IMG/VR virus record: IMGVR_UViG_3300025769_000266
Span: 1-41,389 of that record
DNA: 41,389 nucleotides
Strand: one strand, 5' to 3'
Origin: a virus
Shown: positions 15,902 to 33,813 of the stretch, piece by piece
Layout: the number at the start of each line of letters is the position of its first letter
How positions within the stretch are numbered: position 1 is the first letter of the stretch
Notes under the pieces: model-generated
What the model was told of the DNA's origin: nothing
Databases searched by the model: none
Seen by the model: only the letters and a program-made list of their open reading frames with translations
Translations under genes and position numbers: made by a program

Positions 15902-17461
15902 CTATTGTTGTTTAGATAAATTGTTTGCAACTGGTGCTACAGCTTTTTCAGCCATATTCATCATTTGCTCGTTTTGCATTTGCTCTTCTTGAGCCGCCTG
16001 TTCCTGTGCTAATTGTTCTTGTGATTTAATTAATCCATCTGTATCAATACCTAAACCAGTAGCAATACGTTTAATTAAATCATCAGGGTTTAATGATTGA
16101 ACAACCGCAGGATTTATTTGAGCTAAGTTACCTATCTCAGCTACAAATTCTCTTAATTTTTGTAAATCATTTCCTCTACCTAGAGCTTCAATACCTGTAA
16201 TAATTGTAGGATTTACTGAGCCTTTTGGTAAAGAAGGTATTTCATTTGCTTGTTCCATTCTTTTCATTAGTATAGATACTAACGGAAGTTGAAACTCTTG
16301 TGATAATAAAGAATACACACCACCCATAGCAGTTTCTAATTGTTCTGCCATGTATCTAATCTCTTGTGCTGTAACTCTTTCAGCTTGTCTTTGTATAGCT
16401 GTGTGTAATAAGAAAGCAAATGATAATCTTTCTTCTAATTTTTGTATACTTCTTTCTACAACTTGTAAGTCATATTGTTTTTGTGCTTGTAAGACAGTTA
16501 CATCTTCAGCACTACCAGTAATAATGTCACCATTTCTACTTAATGATAAATCTTTTTTTCTTGTTACTGCATTAGGTCTTACTAAAAATACTACTTTACT
16601 AGAAGCCGCCGCAGATTCTACTAATGCTTGAGACAATCCTTCTAAGCTCTTAAGGTCTCCCAAGAACTCCTCAACGTAGCCTCTTCCATAGTCCTCATTG
16701 TCAACTCTAATCATTCTTAGAGCTTGGTATGGTAATCTATCTTTTTTAAATGTACCTACACTAGATGGTATTTTAACACCATTAGCTTCTTGACAAACAT
16801 AGAACTCATCATTTGGTAATTTATAAACATGTGTATATAATTCTACTTCTTCATCTTTTTTATAATTAGGGTCAGTCATTACTTGTGCGGCAACATCTTT
16901 ATCTAATGCCATCACACTCATTTTTTCTTGAACAATAATTTCACATACATTACCTGAACTATCTCTTTGACATACATATTGAGTTAATGGAAATACTCTC
17001 ATGCTACCTTTTTTAGGTAAATAAGTAAGTACATTACCTGCAACAATTAAATGTTTTAATGCTTCAAATACAGATACTCTTAATGCTAATTGTTCTATTT
17101 TATTAGTTACTTCTCTTTCAATAGTAGCTAAAGATTTTTCTACTTCTGACTTTAATTCTGCTCTTTGTTGTAAATCTTCTTTTGCTTTACCTGCAATAGA
17201 TAATCTAAAAAAAGGTGAGTTTGGGGGAAGTAATAATAGTAATAATTTAGAAGCTAAATTGTTGACACCCCTAGCTCCTACTGATTGGAAGGGGTTATAT
17301 AAATCTGATGAATCTGTAAATCCATCAGGCTGTATTAGAGACGGAATAGTAATTTCAGAACACTCTTCTGCTCTATCTAAAAAATGTTCTCTATGTTGTT
17401 TTAATTTTGAATAACGCTGTCTTGCTGTTCCTTGTGTAAAATTGTTATCCATGTATTCCAT
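15902..17461 (-). CDS. Portal protein, T7 gp8-like
   Basis: A 519-aa protein, near T7 gp8 (536 aa). Early motif: RYSKLKQHREHFLDRAEECS, then ITIPSL and GARGVNNLASKLLLLLLPPN, which are diagnostic for T7-type portals. The C-terminus is Gln/Met-rich (QEQLAQEQAAQEEQMQNEQM). It is the dodecameric ring for packaging and head-tail joining. It is followed 13 bases later by the scaffold gene. Confidence 0.97.
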   Translation of the reverse strand: MEYMDNNFTQGTARQRYSKLKQHREHFLDRAEECSEITIPSLIQPDGFTDSSDLYNPFQSVGARGVNNLASKLLLLLLPPNSPFFRLSIAGKAKEDLQQRAELKSEVEKSLATIEREVTNKIEQLALRVSVFEALKHLIVAGNVLTYLPKKGSMRVFPLTQYVCQRDSSGNVCEIIVQEKMSVMALDKDVAAQVMTDPNYKKDEEVELYTHVYKLPNDEFYVCQEANGVKIPSSVGTFKKDRLPYQALRMIRVDNEDYGRGYVEEFLGDLKSLEGLSQALVESAAASSKVVFLVRPNAVTRKKDLSLSRNGDIITGSAEDVTVLQAQKQYDLQVVERSIQKLEERLSFAFLLHTAIQRQAERVTAQEIRYMAEQLETAMGGVYSLLSQEFQLPLVSILMKRMEQANEIPSLPKGSVNPTIITGIEALGRGNDLQKLREFVAEIGNLAQINPAVVQSLNPDDLIKRIATGLGIDTDGLIKSQEQLAQEQAAQEEQMQNEQMMNMAEKAVAPVANNLSKQQ

Positions 17462-28006: not shown

Positions 28007-30454
28007 TTATGCAAAAAAGAACTCACTATTCCGCAATTCATTAATATCTAAGTCACCTTTTTGCGGAACTTCAGGCAACTTAGTCTTGTACTCTTCAGGA
28101 AGCTGTCTCAATACATCATCTCTGAAATTGGCTAGTATGTCATTATCAGTAAACATCTGTATGAACGCTTCTCTTAGACTCTTATTCAATACTTCTACGT
28201 CTGCCGCAGTAGTACCAAACGAGTCATGCACGTTACAAAAGTTTTCAATACCATTCTCTAATGCAATGTTGACAGTTTCAATCATAGCCGCAGAGTCTAC
28301 AGAGTGAACCAGATTAGGTGCGACTCCGTTAGACATTCTGAGTCTATCAGTTTTGTCATCTTCTACATTGATACGTGGTTTTATAACTTCACCCATGAGC
28401 ATAGCCTTAACTCTTTTAGACTTCATCTCAGGGTATGACTGATACACTGGAAAACCAACTGGTGTAACCCAATGTATAGGCAACTGTAACTTAGATACAA
28501 CACGTGCAATATCTTGTAAGAACTTCATACCAACTCTTGCTGATTTTAAGTTATCACCGATACTGTCCCATATTATACTTGCTAAATAAGATGCAGGTTT
28601 AAACATATCGTCAATAAATGGGTGCATCTCACCTTTGTCTTTACGCTTTGTTAAGTCTTCAACAACAAAGTCCGTACAAGAATATCTGGTACTTCCATAA
28701 CAGATAGTCATAATACTTCTTTTAGTAGTTGAACGCTTTACTCCATAGTCAAGCCATTGTTGTGCATACGGTCTACCGACCTTTGCATGTTCTTTTAATT
28801 TCTCTATTACAGAGTTTGCAACTAATTGATAAATGTCTTTTGGTTTATCACTAGGTAACAAGTTTACTAGCTCACCTGCTTTTTTGTCTCGCAACATCAA
28901 AGAGTAAATTTGTAAACCATTACAAGAGCCATCAACATTAACAACTATGTTAGACACAAAGCCATCACCTTCAGCTTTAAATCTCTTCCACTCTTCAGCC
29001 CACGCTAAAAATTGAAAAGCATTACTTGCGTCTTCCCATTGTCTATTTGTAAATGGGTCATCAACACATTTTATAATCCAGTCTTCATTATCTTTTACCC
29101 ACTGGACTCTATCCTGTAATGATATTTTATCGTTACCGTACATGTTAGCACCATGCACAGCCAACCAAAAGTCGCCTCTGTTTTCTTTTGTAATAGGTTT
29201 GCCCTTACTAAAAGACAACAACGCTTTAGCACCATTGATTGATTGATAGTTTAGAAATGCAGGTACACAGTATGCTCTGCCTCTAAAATCAAATTGTAAC
29301 GGAAAGTAAACTGTGGCGTAGTTTTTAAACTTATCACCCAAGTGTAGTATCTTTGCGTACAACATTCTTTTAGAAAACATACGTGCATTTTCTGTATGCA
29401 CTATAACTGCTTCCTTCTTCCACTTACGTCTTGACTCTTTGTTATCTTTAATGTCAAGAGGCTTGTTAGGTACTTCAAGATTTTTAATAGGTGGCATACC
29501 ACCGATAGCAAGTCCTCTGTCCCAAGCCTCTGCCATTACGCCTAAGATGTATTTGTTTATTTTAAATGCGGTTGACTGCATAGCGTTTACCGCCTTGTAT
29601 ACTTTAGGCATGTCAAAGTTTGCTAATTCACGTGCAAACAATTTGTTCTTTTGTTTTACTAAATCTAATGACGGCAACTCTTTAGTCCAGTAGCCGCCAC
29701 CTTCAACTGAGTCCCACATTTTTGGCGGCATAACCGTCATCATGTAGTCAGGGTTTAGTAACTCATTAAAAGCATTTCTGTTTTTAATCCAGTCTCTAGT
29801 CTTTTGAGTCTGTTTAACTATCTTTGCTTTTTTATGTTTAATAGTCTCTACACCTATCTCAATCATACCAGTAGACTCAATCATAAGCTCAACAAGTCTG
29901 AGACCTACGTGTAGTTTTGTGGGCGTAGTCCACTCTTCCCAAGCCATGACATTGTCACGCTTAGAACTCTCTCTTAGTTTTCTACGCTTGTAAGTGTAAT
30001 TCCAAGACCTCTTGTCCAAGTCTTGCTTGACCGTATCGTATAATTCAGGGTTAAGATGTCTGAAATTCTTTAGTGCAATCTCAGTCTCAACTTTACCACC
30101 AAGACTTATACATGTAGCGGTCAATGGTTTATATTGTGTGATTGTATTTATTATGTGCTTACCTGTAATCAAAGCCAATATCTCAGGTTCAACTTCACAT
30201 AGTTTAGTGAAAGCTATAGGTGGTTTACTCACAGTGTTTTTAGCAGTGTAAGTTATCCAGTCACCAATAGCCATTGCTAAAGGTCTGATTGTATTGGCTA
30301 CCATTACTTTACCGTAACTGGTAACACTCTCTTCTTCACGCTCAATATGAGAATGAAGTCTTTTGTTGGTTCTATTTTTACCACTTTCAGCCATGTCCTT
30401 CTCATTAGCTTGTTGGTCAGGGAAAGTAGGCATTATTTCTAGTATCTTGGTCAA
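28007..30454 (-). CDS. Single-subunit DNA-directed RNA polymerase, T7 gp1-like
   Basis: An 815-aa enzyme (T7 883). Catalytic residues: D508 in NVDGSCNGLQ, R574/K578/Y586 in the O-helix (KRSTTKRSIMTICYGS), and D744 in VHDSFGT. The specificity loop corresponds to about residues 660-695 (HWVTPVGFPVYQSYPEMKSK onward). The C-terminus is FFFA, like the T7 'FAFA' foot. It should read the six conserved motifs listed here. It is preceded by its own promoter-like motif at 30489-30507, suggesting autoactivation. Confidence 0.98.
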   Translation of the reverse strand: MTKILEIMPTFPDQQANEKDMAESGKNRTNKRLHSHIEREEESVTSYGKVMVANTIRPLAMAIGDWITYTAKNTVSKPPIAFTKLCEVEPEILALITGKHIINTITQYKPLTATCISLGGKVETEIALKNFRHLNPELYDTVKQDLDKRSWNYTYKRRKLRESSKRDNVMAWEEWTTPTKLHVGLRLVELMIESTGMIEIGVETIKHKKAKIVKQTQKTRDWIKNRNAFNELLNPDYMMTVMPPKMWDSVEGGGYWTKELPSLDLVKQKNKLFARELANFDMPKVYKAVNAMQSTAFKINKYILGVMAEAWDRGLAIGGMPPIKNLEVPNKPLDIKDNKESRRKWKKEAVIVHTENARMFSKRMLYAKILHLGDKFKNYATVYFPLQFDFRGRAYCVPAFLNYQSINGAKALLSFSKGKPITKENRGDFWLAVHGANMYGNDKISLQDRVQWVKDNEDWIIKCVDDPFTNRQWEDASNAFQFLAWAEEWKRFKAEGDGFVSNIVVNVDGSCNGLQIYSLMLRDKKAGELVNLLPSDKPKDIYQLVANSVIEKLKEHAKVGRPYAQQWLDYGVKRSTTKRSIMTICYGSTRYSCTDFVVEDLTKRKDKGEMHPFIDDMFKPASYLASIIWDSIGDNLKSARVGMKFLQDIARVVSKLQLPIHWVTPVGFPVYQSYPEMKSKRVKAMLMGEVIKPRINVEDDKTDRLRMSNGVAPNLVHSVDSAAMIETVNIALENGIENFCNVHDSFGTTAADVEVLNKSLREAFIQMFTDNDILANFRDDVLRQLPEEYKTKLPEVPQKGDLDINELRNSEFFFA

Positions 30455-30488: not shown

Positions 30489-30507
30489 TATCTACTATGG
30501 GAACTTT
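30489..30507 (-). promoter_or_regulatory. Putative phage RNA polymerase promoter (RNA polymerase unit)
   Basis: The minus strand reads AAAGTTCCCATAGTAGATA, a full consensus match. It overlaps the integrase stop codon and lies 35 bases upstream of the RNA polymerase start, so the polymerase may transcribe its own gene. Confidence 0.72.
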
Positions 30508-31312
30508 ACTTGTAGTCCTCTAATATGTTAACAGCTTTTAGTAGATTTTTAGGCATTAAATGGGCGTACCTAAGTGTCATATTGTAAGACTTATGACCCA
30601 ACCATTCTTTAATAAAGTGTAACTCTACTTTACCTGATTGAGCTAGTCTTGAAGCACACGTGTGACGTAGACAGTGTATTACAAACTGCTTATCGCCGTC
30701 TAGTCCCATCTCTTTACGTAGCTTCTGCCAAACACGCTCCGCCATGTTATAGTTTAGGTGACTAAAATCACCTGTTTTCTGCAACATAGCTACACACCGT
30801 CTAGTCAACGGTACACTCCGAGTTGTATTGTTTTTAGTTTCATCTGCATACAATACAATAAAGTATTTGCCGTCTAGTCTTTGTATTGCATCTTTTTTAA
30901 ATGACAATGCTTCGCCTAGTCTAACGCCTGTATCTAACAGAAATAAAAATAGACTAAGATATGGACTCTTGCCTAGTATCTTAATCATTCTTTGCTCTTC
31001 GTCTGCTGTCATAAATCTAAGTCTAGCCTTTGACTCTTCCTGCCATGCTATGTGCGGCAGTCTAGTCATATTGTAGACACTAGGTCTATTGTAGGCATAC
31101 TTCAATATCTTACTAATACTTGCAAGATACCTATTAACAGTAGAACCTTTGACTCCACGCTTTTTTATAAACGCCGTCAAGTCTTCTAAGTGTGTTTCAT
31201 TTATTGCATTAGGTTTTTTTGAGTGACCCAAAAAATTAATACAAGTCTCTGCTCTGCTACCTTGAGAAGTTTCCCAAGATAGCACGTCTTTTATTTGTTT
31301 TATTGTTTTCAA
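30506..31312 (-). CDS. int: Tyrosine recombinase/integrase
   Basis: A 268-aa phage integrase. The catalytic set is complete: R131 (TGVRLGEAL), K160 (DETKNN), H213-x2-R216 (HCLRHT), H240 (LGHKS) and the nucleophile Y249 (LRYAHL). A SAM-like N-terminal core-binding domain spans about residues 1-90. It lies just before the RNA polymerase gene, the arrangement known from integrase-bearing marine T7-like phages. Temperate growth is therefore possible. No attP could be recognised without a host sequence. Four copies of the GACTAGACGGC repeat or a variant lie inside the gene. Confidence 0.95.
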   Translation of the reverse strand: MKTIKQIKDVLSWETSQGSRAETCINFLGHSKKPNAINETHLEDLTAFIKKRGVKGSTVNRYLASISKILKYAYNRPSVYNMTRLPHIAWQEESKARLRFMTADEEQRMIKILGKSPYLSLFLFLLDTGVRLGEALSFKKDAIQRLDGKYFIVLYADETKNNTTRSVPLTRRCVAMLQKTGDFSHLNYNMAERVWQKLRKEMGLDGDKQFVIHCLRHTCASRLAQSGKVELHFIKEWLGHKSYNMTLRYAHLMPKNLLKAVNILEDYK

Positions 31313-32448: not shown

Positions 32449-32508
32449 GAGCTCATCAGTCAGGGCATGACCCTGAGACAAGGCGGAAAGCTCCGCCCTG
32501 TTTCGCTC
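32449..32508 (-). ncRNA. Hammerhead ribozyme, type II
   Basis: Minus strand in order: stem II 3' arm GAGC; core GAAA (32504-32501); stem III ACAGGGCGGA-GCTT-TCCGCCTTGT (10 pairs, one G-U, counting the last A of GAAA); cleavage triplet GTC ending at 32477; stem I TCAGGG-TCATG-CCCTGA (6 pairs); core CTGATGA (32459-32453); stem II 5' arm GCTC. Every invariant hammerhead base is present, with stem II as the open stem. Predicted cut between 32477 and 32476. It starts six bases after the stop of a 28-aa ORF in the early transcript. Confidence 0.9.
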
Positions 32509-32621: not shown

Positions 32622-33011
32622 TTAATCTCTAAAGCCGTTGACTCTTAGTCTCTCAGCGTAACGCTCATTCCTGAACGCCGCCTCTTTTTGCTCTTCCTCG
32701 TCCTTCCACTTTTTAAAGTATTTCTCTTTTAGAGCCTCTTCACTTAAAAAAGCGGTAGCCTTCATAGTCTTTTTATTTTTATTATAAGTAGCAGTTTTAA
32801 TTAACTCGCCATCAAAATAAAAATTATATGTTTTTTCTTTGCCGTCATCTGAATGGCTGACACTATATCCGCCAAAGTCATAAGAGTTAGAGGCACTTGT
32901 GCCAACGTAAATCCTTGATTGTGCATAATCTCTAACACCTTGAGACTTTGCACCGTTGTTAGAATAGGCGTTATTATATGTATCAATCCATATTGGGTAG
33001 CTTCTTGACAT
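32622..33011 (-). CDS. Early hypothetical protein
   Basis: A 129-aa protein. The N-terminal half is Tyr/Ser/Asn-rich (MSRSYPIWIDTYNNAYSNNG; YSVSHSDDGKEKTYNFYFDG). The C-terminal part is a charged helix with many Lys and Glu (LKEKYFKKWKDEEEQKEAAF). Leader AACAAACTAACAACGGAGTA gives a good ribosome-binding site and resembles that of 31938-32165. It lies within the segment bracketed by the two hammerheads. Not recognised. Confidence 0.7.
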   Translation of the reverse strand: MSRSYPIWIDTYNNAYSNNGAKSQGVRDYAQSRIYVGTSASNSYDFGGYSVSHSDDGKEKTYNFYFDGELIKTATYNKNKKTMKATAFLSEEALKEKYFKKWKDEEEQKEAAFRNERYAERLRVNGFRD

Positions 33012-33090: not shown

Positions 33091-33348
33091 TTAATATCTC
33101 GCAAAGTATTTATTTTTAATAAGCTCCAGTTTTTGCTCTAGTGTTAGAACGTCAACCAGTGACTCAGTAAAAATAGACTCTTGCGAGTCTAAGAGCTCAC
33201 GCCCACCAGATACAAAGCCAACAGCGTTAGCCTGTAGCTCGTTGAACATGTGCTCCAAAGTTTGACAGCCAAGCCCTATAGTGTGAGTGTGCGGACAGGC
33301 AGGAACGCCGCCTCGTCTACACTCTGGACACCATACGACTAGAGCCAA
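33091..33348 (-). CDS. Early protein with Cys/His zinc-ribbon-like motif
   Basis: An 85-aa frame starting at TTG (33348): WCPECRRGG then ACPHTHTIGLGCQ. C-x2-C followed by C-x-H-x-H is a plausible zinc site. The C-terminus is helical and charged (DVLTLEQKLELIKNKYFARY). The start overlaps the stop of the upstream 56-aa ORF, with AGAAGG immediately before it, so reinitiation or frameshifting between the two is possible. The start site is uncertain. Confidence 0.5.
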   Translation of the reverse strand: MALVVWCPECRRGGVPACPHTHTIGLGCQTLEHMFNELQANAVGFVSGGRELLDSQESIFTESLVDVLTLEQKLELIKNKYFARY

Positions 33349-33509
33349 CCTTCTGCGACTGCTTCAGACAACATTTTCTTTTTTTTGTCTTTGTCAGTCT
33401 CTTTATTGTACGCCGCAAAGTGCTCGTTTTTTGCCTGTTCGTCTTTAAACTTAGACAGGCTGTCCTCGTTCTGCATTTTTGCAACTTTCTTATTAATACG
33501 TCTAGGCAT
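33339..33509 (-). CDS. 56-aa Lys-rich early protein downstream of hammerhead ribozyme
   Basis: A short gene, MPRRINKKVAKMQNEDSLSK, then FKDEQAKNEHFAAYNKETDK and a Lys run. ATG at 33509 with GGAG nine bases upstream. The type III hammerhead ends 18 bases before the start codon, so this is the first gene on the mRNA that self-cleavage would create, and the ribozyme body would form its 5' leader. Basic and helical; function unknown. Confidence 0.6.
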   Translation of the reverse strand: MPRRINKKVAKMQNEDSLSKFKDEQAKNEHFAAYNKETDKDKKKKMLSEAVAEGWL

Positions 33510-33527
33510 TATATAAGACTCCGTTTA

Positions 33528-33581
33528 GTTGTTTCGCTGTTACTGACAGCTCATCAGTCATATTTAATAATATGAGACAAC
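33528..33581 (-). ncRNA. Hammerhead ribozyme, type III
   Basis: Minus strand in order: stem III 5' arm GTTGT; C17 of the GTC cleavage triplet at 33576; stem I TCATAT-TATTAA-ATATGA (6 perfect pairs); core CTGATGA (33557-33551); stem II GCTGT-CAGTA-ACAGC (5 perfect pairs); core GAAA (33535-33532); stem III 3' arm ACAAC (5 pairs, using the last A of GAAA). All invariant bases are present and stem III is the open stem. Predicted cut between 33576 and 33575. It lies in the leader of the 56-aa gene at 33339-33509. Confidence 0.93.
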
Positions 33582-33587
33582 AGAGAC

Positions 33588-33741
33588 GCTAGACCTACTA
33601 CTCCGCCAAGAGTCCGCCTTCTAGCTTGAGTGGGCTTTCCTGACAGCTTAGAGACAAACTCGCCCAGATAAAGCAGTCATTGAAAGTCCGTTCCCAGACT
33701 GCAAGTCTACCGAGAGCCCTGCACCGCCGCACCCTGTCAGG
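33588..33741 (-). ncRNA. Candidate structured RNA upstream of hammerhead
   Basis: No ORF of note and visibly GC-richer than its surroundings. On the minus strand, CCTGACAG (33741-33734) pairs with CTGTCAGG (33646-33639) and would close a domain of about 100 nt. Inside is AGTCTG-GGAA-CGGACT (33700-33685), a 6-pair hairpin with a GNRA tetraloop. A second unit is closed by GCTAGA (33625-33620) with TCTAGC (33593-33588) around ACTC/GAGT. I do not recognise the class. It directly precedes the type III hammerhead. Confidence 0.55.
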
Positions 33742-33813
33742 CACTTAGTTTATTTTATGTAGAGTTAAAACTAGCAAATAATCAATATAAATAAGTTATA
33801 CACTAAAACGGAT

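Follow-up and report, generated by a model that had tools for sequence, protein, structure and literature searches.

Phage T7 makes a long early transcript with the host polymerase, and host RNase III cuts this RNA between genes, with hairpins at the mRNA ends. Hammerhead ribozymes have also been connected with long phage RNAs. Perreault et al. (2011) (PMC3088659) describe how all three hammerhead types cluster around prophage genes, with prophage clusters in Agrobacterium tumefaciens, Azorhizobium caulinodans and Clostridium scindens, and propose that they process long phage RNAs. That paper also reports that phage-borne clusters cleaved in vitro, the A. tumefaciens set also in E. coli, and that the mapped 5′ end in haloviruses HF1 and HF2 is no more than three nucleotides from the cleavage site. 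In a 2017 review (PMC6155905) the function of hammerheads in prokaryotes is still counted among the open questions, and their persistent link with phages is noted. Our literature search for hammerheads in pelagiphages or Autographiviridae found only a general review in which both words occur; the 2011 supplements and subscription papers lay outside that search, so some marine metagenomic copies may already be listed there.

The DNA analyzed here (the window) is the whole 41,389-nucleotide stretch of IMG/VR record IMGVR_UViG_3300025769_000266, which DNA similarity places in the Pelagivirus neighborhood, that is, among the HTVC019P-like Autographiviridae of SAR11. A predicted type III hammerhead at positions 33528–33581 of its minus strand is very probably the first of a conserved self-cleaving array that would cut the Pelagivirus immediate-early polycistronic transcript into gene-sized mRNAs. 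Hammerhead clusters in prophages have been known since 2011, so these molecules add new members to an established ribozyme class, in a type of arrangement already described. What appears to be new is the fixed order, the confinement to the early region throughout a T7-like genus, and the leader RNA.

Two hammerheads in the early region of the window

The type III hammerhead is immediately preceded by terminase and lysozyme genes and followed by the early genes, integrase and RNA polymerase, so the ribozyme heads the early region (all window features described below are on the minus strand). From 33581 to 33528 this strand reads GTTGT C^ TCATATTATTAAATATGA CTGATGA GCTGTCAGTAACAGC GAA ACAAC, where the caret marks the predicted cut between 33576 (C17) and 33575. 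Every base of the core (C3, U4, G5, A6, N7, G8, A9, G12, A13, A14, A15.1, U16.1 and H17) is canonical under the consensus used by Perreault et al. (2011) (PMC3088659). Stem III, which is open, has 5 pairs including A15.1–U16.1, stem I has 6–7 and stem II has 5. The hammerhead is also the minimum-energy fold of 33520–33590 (RNAfold), at an energy that is itself ordinary (z = −0.9). The predicted hammerhead is almost certainly real, and the intact core, three stems and minimum-energy fold confirm the class, strand, topology and cut site assigned in the preliminary description.

The motif stops 18 bases (33527–33510) short of the ATG at 33509, which starts the first early gene (33339–33509, 56 aa), and a good ribosome-binding site, AACGGAG, lies between ribozyme and ATG. 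This ORF position and the Pelagivirus similarity agree with the context first proposed, namely 18 bases before the start of an early gene in a T7-like phage. The gene had been called small and basic; small it is, and its product is only mildly basic, with 14 K/R vs 10 D/E by hand count. It has 17 IMG/VR relatives. A 129-aa early gene with its own AACGGAG site lies between the two hammerheads (32622–33011), and a PHROGs search gave no match for the product of either gene. The last early gene ahead of the RNA polymerase is an integrase (30506–31312; PHROG 1, E = 4.4e-47), and it is the boundary at which the hammerhead-bearing region stops. The phage RNA polymerase gene (28007–30454) aligns with annotated pelagiphage RNA polymerases and was the anchor of the census below. 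We also note that GACTAGACGG occurs seven times on the minus strand of the window (32272, 32203, 31895, 31523, 30870, 30797 and 30696); all copies are on the coding strand, within the final 1.6 kb of early DNA that precedes the polymerase gene, and there are none elsewhere in the window.

A second hammerhead, overlooked in the first reading, lies between early genes at 32449–32508. It is of type II, with stem II open and loops closing stems I and III, has a canonical core and reads GAGC GAA ACAGGGCGGAGCTTTCCGCCTTGT C^ TCAGGGTCATGCCCTGA CTGATGA GCTC, with the predicted cut at 32477/32476. Here too the hammerhead is the minimum-energy fold, with z = −3.7. Pseudoknots between loop I and the 3′ tail are common in type II hammerheads, according to PMC3088659. 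Long flanks reduce the pairing probability of both window ribozymes in local folding (mean about 0.66–0.70). A relaxed search allowing one core mismatch found no further hammerhead in the early region of the window. The idea of a lone leader ribozyme is ruled out by this second site and by the presence of up to four hammerheads in relatives.

The descriptor search covered all three circular permutations of the hammerhead in the window and in the genomes of annotated relatives, and it scored the type III site at 16.3 and the type II site at 17.1. Among 60 dinucleotide-preserving shuffles of the window, 2.5 Mb in all, 1 match reached 12 and none reached 16, so the preliminary judgment that the type III motif (16.3) is very unlikely to have arisen by chance holds. 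Shuffles of the descriptor-searched genomes (1.1 Mb) gave one match of at least 11 and none of at least 12.

At its curated gathering cut-offs Rfam finds no family in the whole window and no hammerhead in six relatives' genomes. The core, three-way junction and topology are common to the window sites and Rfam families RF00008 and RF02276, but the scores fall short. RF00008 (Hammerhead_3) matches the type III site at 31.5 bits (E = 6.6e-5 for 501 bases) against a curated cut-off of 48.5, and Rfam annotation misses the site for this reason; the expected Hammerhead_3 match thus exists, at a score below the library's threshold. RF02276 (Hammerhead_II) matches the type II site weakly, at 22.0 bits (E = 0.015 in 161 bases) against a cut-off of 37. 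The gathering score is a library cut-off without mechanistic meaning for a ribozyme, and since gathering scans are blind to these hammerheads they were unusable for a census. Our own type III covariance model R1, in which the window itself is included, gives the type III site 75.6 bits.

The array in related phages

In six annotated genomes, the descriptor search found four hammerheads in HTVC031P (types III, III, II and I), three in HTVC168P (III, I and II), three in Eistla (I, II and I), two each in HTVC142P and HTVC019P, and one in HTVC021P. All 15 lie in an intergenic gap or overlap the upstream stop codon by no more than 4 nt. The HTVC031P, HTVC142P and HTVC168P records start at gene 1 and have the corresponding hammerhead at the extreme record end, which is 10–16 nt ahead of gene 1 on the circularized map. 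With these three linear records treated as circular, type III leads wherever it co-occurs with other types, and types I and II lie between later early genes. Weak matches at 16220 in HTVC168P and 21781 in HTVC309P, both a long way from the early region, are probably due to chance and were disregarded.

For the census, 80 related IMG/VR contigs were collected through their RNA polymerase and matches scoring at least 12 were counted. Of 95 matches, 90 (type I 59, type III 16, type II 15) lie upstream of the polymerase gene in 221 kb, all on the coding strand; because some contigs are nearly identical, these are numbers of matches and not of independent events. Five low-scoring matches in the 626 kb downstream of the polymerase were set aside as probable chance, and the opposite strand of the 80 contigs had no match at all. 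Stem III has a median of 11 pairs in type I, 9.5 in type II and 7 in type III. At four type I sites (L025:488, L026:663, L027:8787 and L027:10041) GTAACA, which forms the 5′ strand of stem I, includes the TAA that terminates the upstream gene, so that the ribozyme starts where the reading frame ends. Pelagivirus-like RNA polymerases and hammerhead arrays are also present in L111 (NZIV01000032.1), binned as Neomarinimicrobiota, and L112 (NHCX01000075.1), binned as Verrucomicrobia; these contigs are probably misbinned phage.

Covariation in related phages, whose absence the preliminary description had named beforehand as refuting evidence, is strong in all three stems of the type III hammerhead. 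In 28 distinct type III sequences 96.6% of cells are paired and 12 of 17 pairs are altered on both sides, with compensatory changes in every stem; this alignment was fitted to its own model, so its figures lean towards the structure. The type I and type II alignments were made with plain MAFFT from sequences picked by the descriptor, and they gave 99.8% pairing with 13 of 17 pairs altered on both sides (type I, 25 sequences) and 99.2% pairing with 13 of 19 pairs so altered (type II, 13 sequences). For each of the three types, none of 500 shuffles equaled the pairing or double-change counts, and pairing falls to 25–47% when partners are slid by 1–3 columns.

Three covariance models were also run on whole phage records. 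Seven of eight Pelagivirus records outside model building (HTVC022P, 131P, 201P, 304P, 109P, Jormungand and S35-C6) match at E values of 1e-15 to 1e-20, and overall 13 of 14 named Pelagivirus records have hammerheads. In HTVC105P (L119, MH598804.1), also a Pelagivirus, none of the three models finds a convincing match. The array is therefore dispensable, and this phage is a natural comparison for studying the array's purpose. The three models likewise gave no convincing match in four other pelagiphages, HTVC200P (Votkovvirus), HTVC309P, HTVC011P (Stopavirus) and HTVC010P, or in P-SSP7 or T7.

A structured leader RNA

Upstream of the type III hammerhead, the window carries a class A structured leader RNA (33590–33745) that consists of a stem, P1 (CCTGACAG/CTGTCAGG), and 3′ hairpins and is 83% identical to the HTVC168P leader. 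P1 takes the forms CCTGACAG/CTGTCAGG, CCACACAC/GTGTGTGG, CCAAAGTC/GACTTTGG and CCATACAC/GTGTATGG in different phages; its sequences differ and its pairing is kept by compensatory change, which argues that P1 is maintained, and in more distant members it is interrupted. The class A members (the window, L005, L008, L010, L011, L014, L015, L018, L021 and L100) have a strongly conserved GGAAAGCCCAC stretch, and a TGGGC/GCCCA pseudoknot is possible. An Rfam search with the class A leader gave no convincing match.

An alternative leader, class B, occupies the same position in L002, L004, L007, L013, L016, L019, L053, L106 and L107. It has the form AAGTCGGACACCGCAACAG ... GTCTAGYGCTTCAGCG and is found some 200 nt ahead of the type III ribozyme; among its 9 sequences RNAalifold detects 17 pairs in which both bases have changed. 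The class A leader would probably be released as a separate small RNA by type III cleavage.

Proposed early transcript processing and comparison with known systems

The intact core, three stems, covariation, coding-strand intergenic placement and fixed type order can all be read from the sequence, and from them we infer cleavage in cis and use in the cell. A sigma-70 scan for an early promoter gave nothing beyond shuffle level, so a single long early transcript is an assumption, made for the array genes from their common strand and close packing. On such a transcript, each ribozyme would cleave in cis as the RNA is made. The type III cut would free a structured leader RNA of ~150–200 nt and leave gene 1 mRNA with a 5′-OH and a start flush with the stem I hairpin. 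A type I cut would place the end of the upstream mRNA one base past the stem III hairpin. Type II cleavage would have both effects: the downstream RNA would open directly with the stem I hairpin, while the upstream RNA would end after the stem III hairpin. After either a type I or a type II cut, the 3′ end of the upstream mRNA would be a long stem III hairpin with a 2′,3′-cyclic phosphate. Such ends should change decay segment by segment and uncouple neighboring genes. The geometry of these predicted products may explain which permutation is used where, and the longer stem III of types I and II is as expected if stem III acts as a 3′ cap.

The same hammerheads, if active, might serve chiefly to trim the leader and release it as a small RNA with a function of its own, such as a decoy or a regulator, with mRNA segmentation a secondary effect. 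That a conserved structured RNA, in either of two alternative classes, precedes type III and that compensatory changes keep P1 of class A are both consistent with this, but types I and II lie between later genes, remote from the leader, and Eistla and several contigs carry type I or II with no detected type III (some contigs may end before the leader); we consider such a primary role unlikely. It is less probable still, indeed quite improbable, that the ribozymes are regulated switches in which a host or environmental signal (a ligand or ion) gates early mRNA cleavage, which would then not be constitutive. The structured leader before type III could act as a sensor, and PMC3088659 raises regulation for the halovirus hammerhead upstream of an early gene; however, the stem loops are small and ordinary, most members have no aptamer-like insertion in stem I or II, and the array is found at many different genes.

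The Rfam scores under the curated cut-offs could also be taken to mean that the motifs are chance resemblances or decayed, inactive relics. Almost no matches arise in shuffles, however, cores stay intact while stems covary, the strand and position bias is complete, and held-out records match at E 1e-15 or better, so that this explanation is extremely improbable. Cutting of the early transcript by a conserved array is the reading that we prefer, and we tentatively extend it as follows. Pelagivirus may have moved its early-mRNA processing from a host enzyme to ordered self-cleaving RNAs, each permutation placed where it would leave a protective hairpin (type III at the 5′ end of the first mRNA, types I and II at upstream 3′ ends), and the first cut may free a new structured viral small RNA; this fuller scenario is a serious possibility, though we would not yet call it the probable one. 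These hammerheads keep their order in one early region of phages that can be grown in culture, HTVC031P on HTCC1062 among them, so a role in mRNA processing is directly testable. If that role is confirmed, a widespread marine virus group manages its first genes by self-cutting RNA. Our results show, too, that curated Rfam cut-offs conceal a whole phage ribozyme family.

Among described hammerheads, HHphage of haloviruses HF1 and HF2 (PMC3088659) is similar in that it lies 13 nt ahead of the gene that opens a polycistronic early transcript. It differs in its variant core with a two-base insertion and in belonging to an archaeal virus, whereas the window hammerhead has a fully canonical core and sits within an array. 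The prophage clusters of that paper are alike in that hammerheads of mixed type border individual genes or short gene blocks within one phage transcript, and unlike in that they lie in bacterial prophages at varying genes, with no fixed genus-wide order reported in the available part of the paper. The Pelagivirus array, in contrast, belongs to T7-like SAR11 phages, is found in the early region before the RNA polymerase only, and has type III in the lead behind a structured leader.

T7, a phage of the same family, has an early transcript that is cut between genes, as is predicted for Pelagivirus. In T7, which lacks a match to our three models, a host protein makes the cuts, whereas the Pelagivirus RNA is predicted to cut itself. 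The ribozyme array would most likely do the job that RNase III does in T7, and do it without an enzyme.
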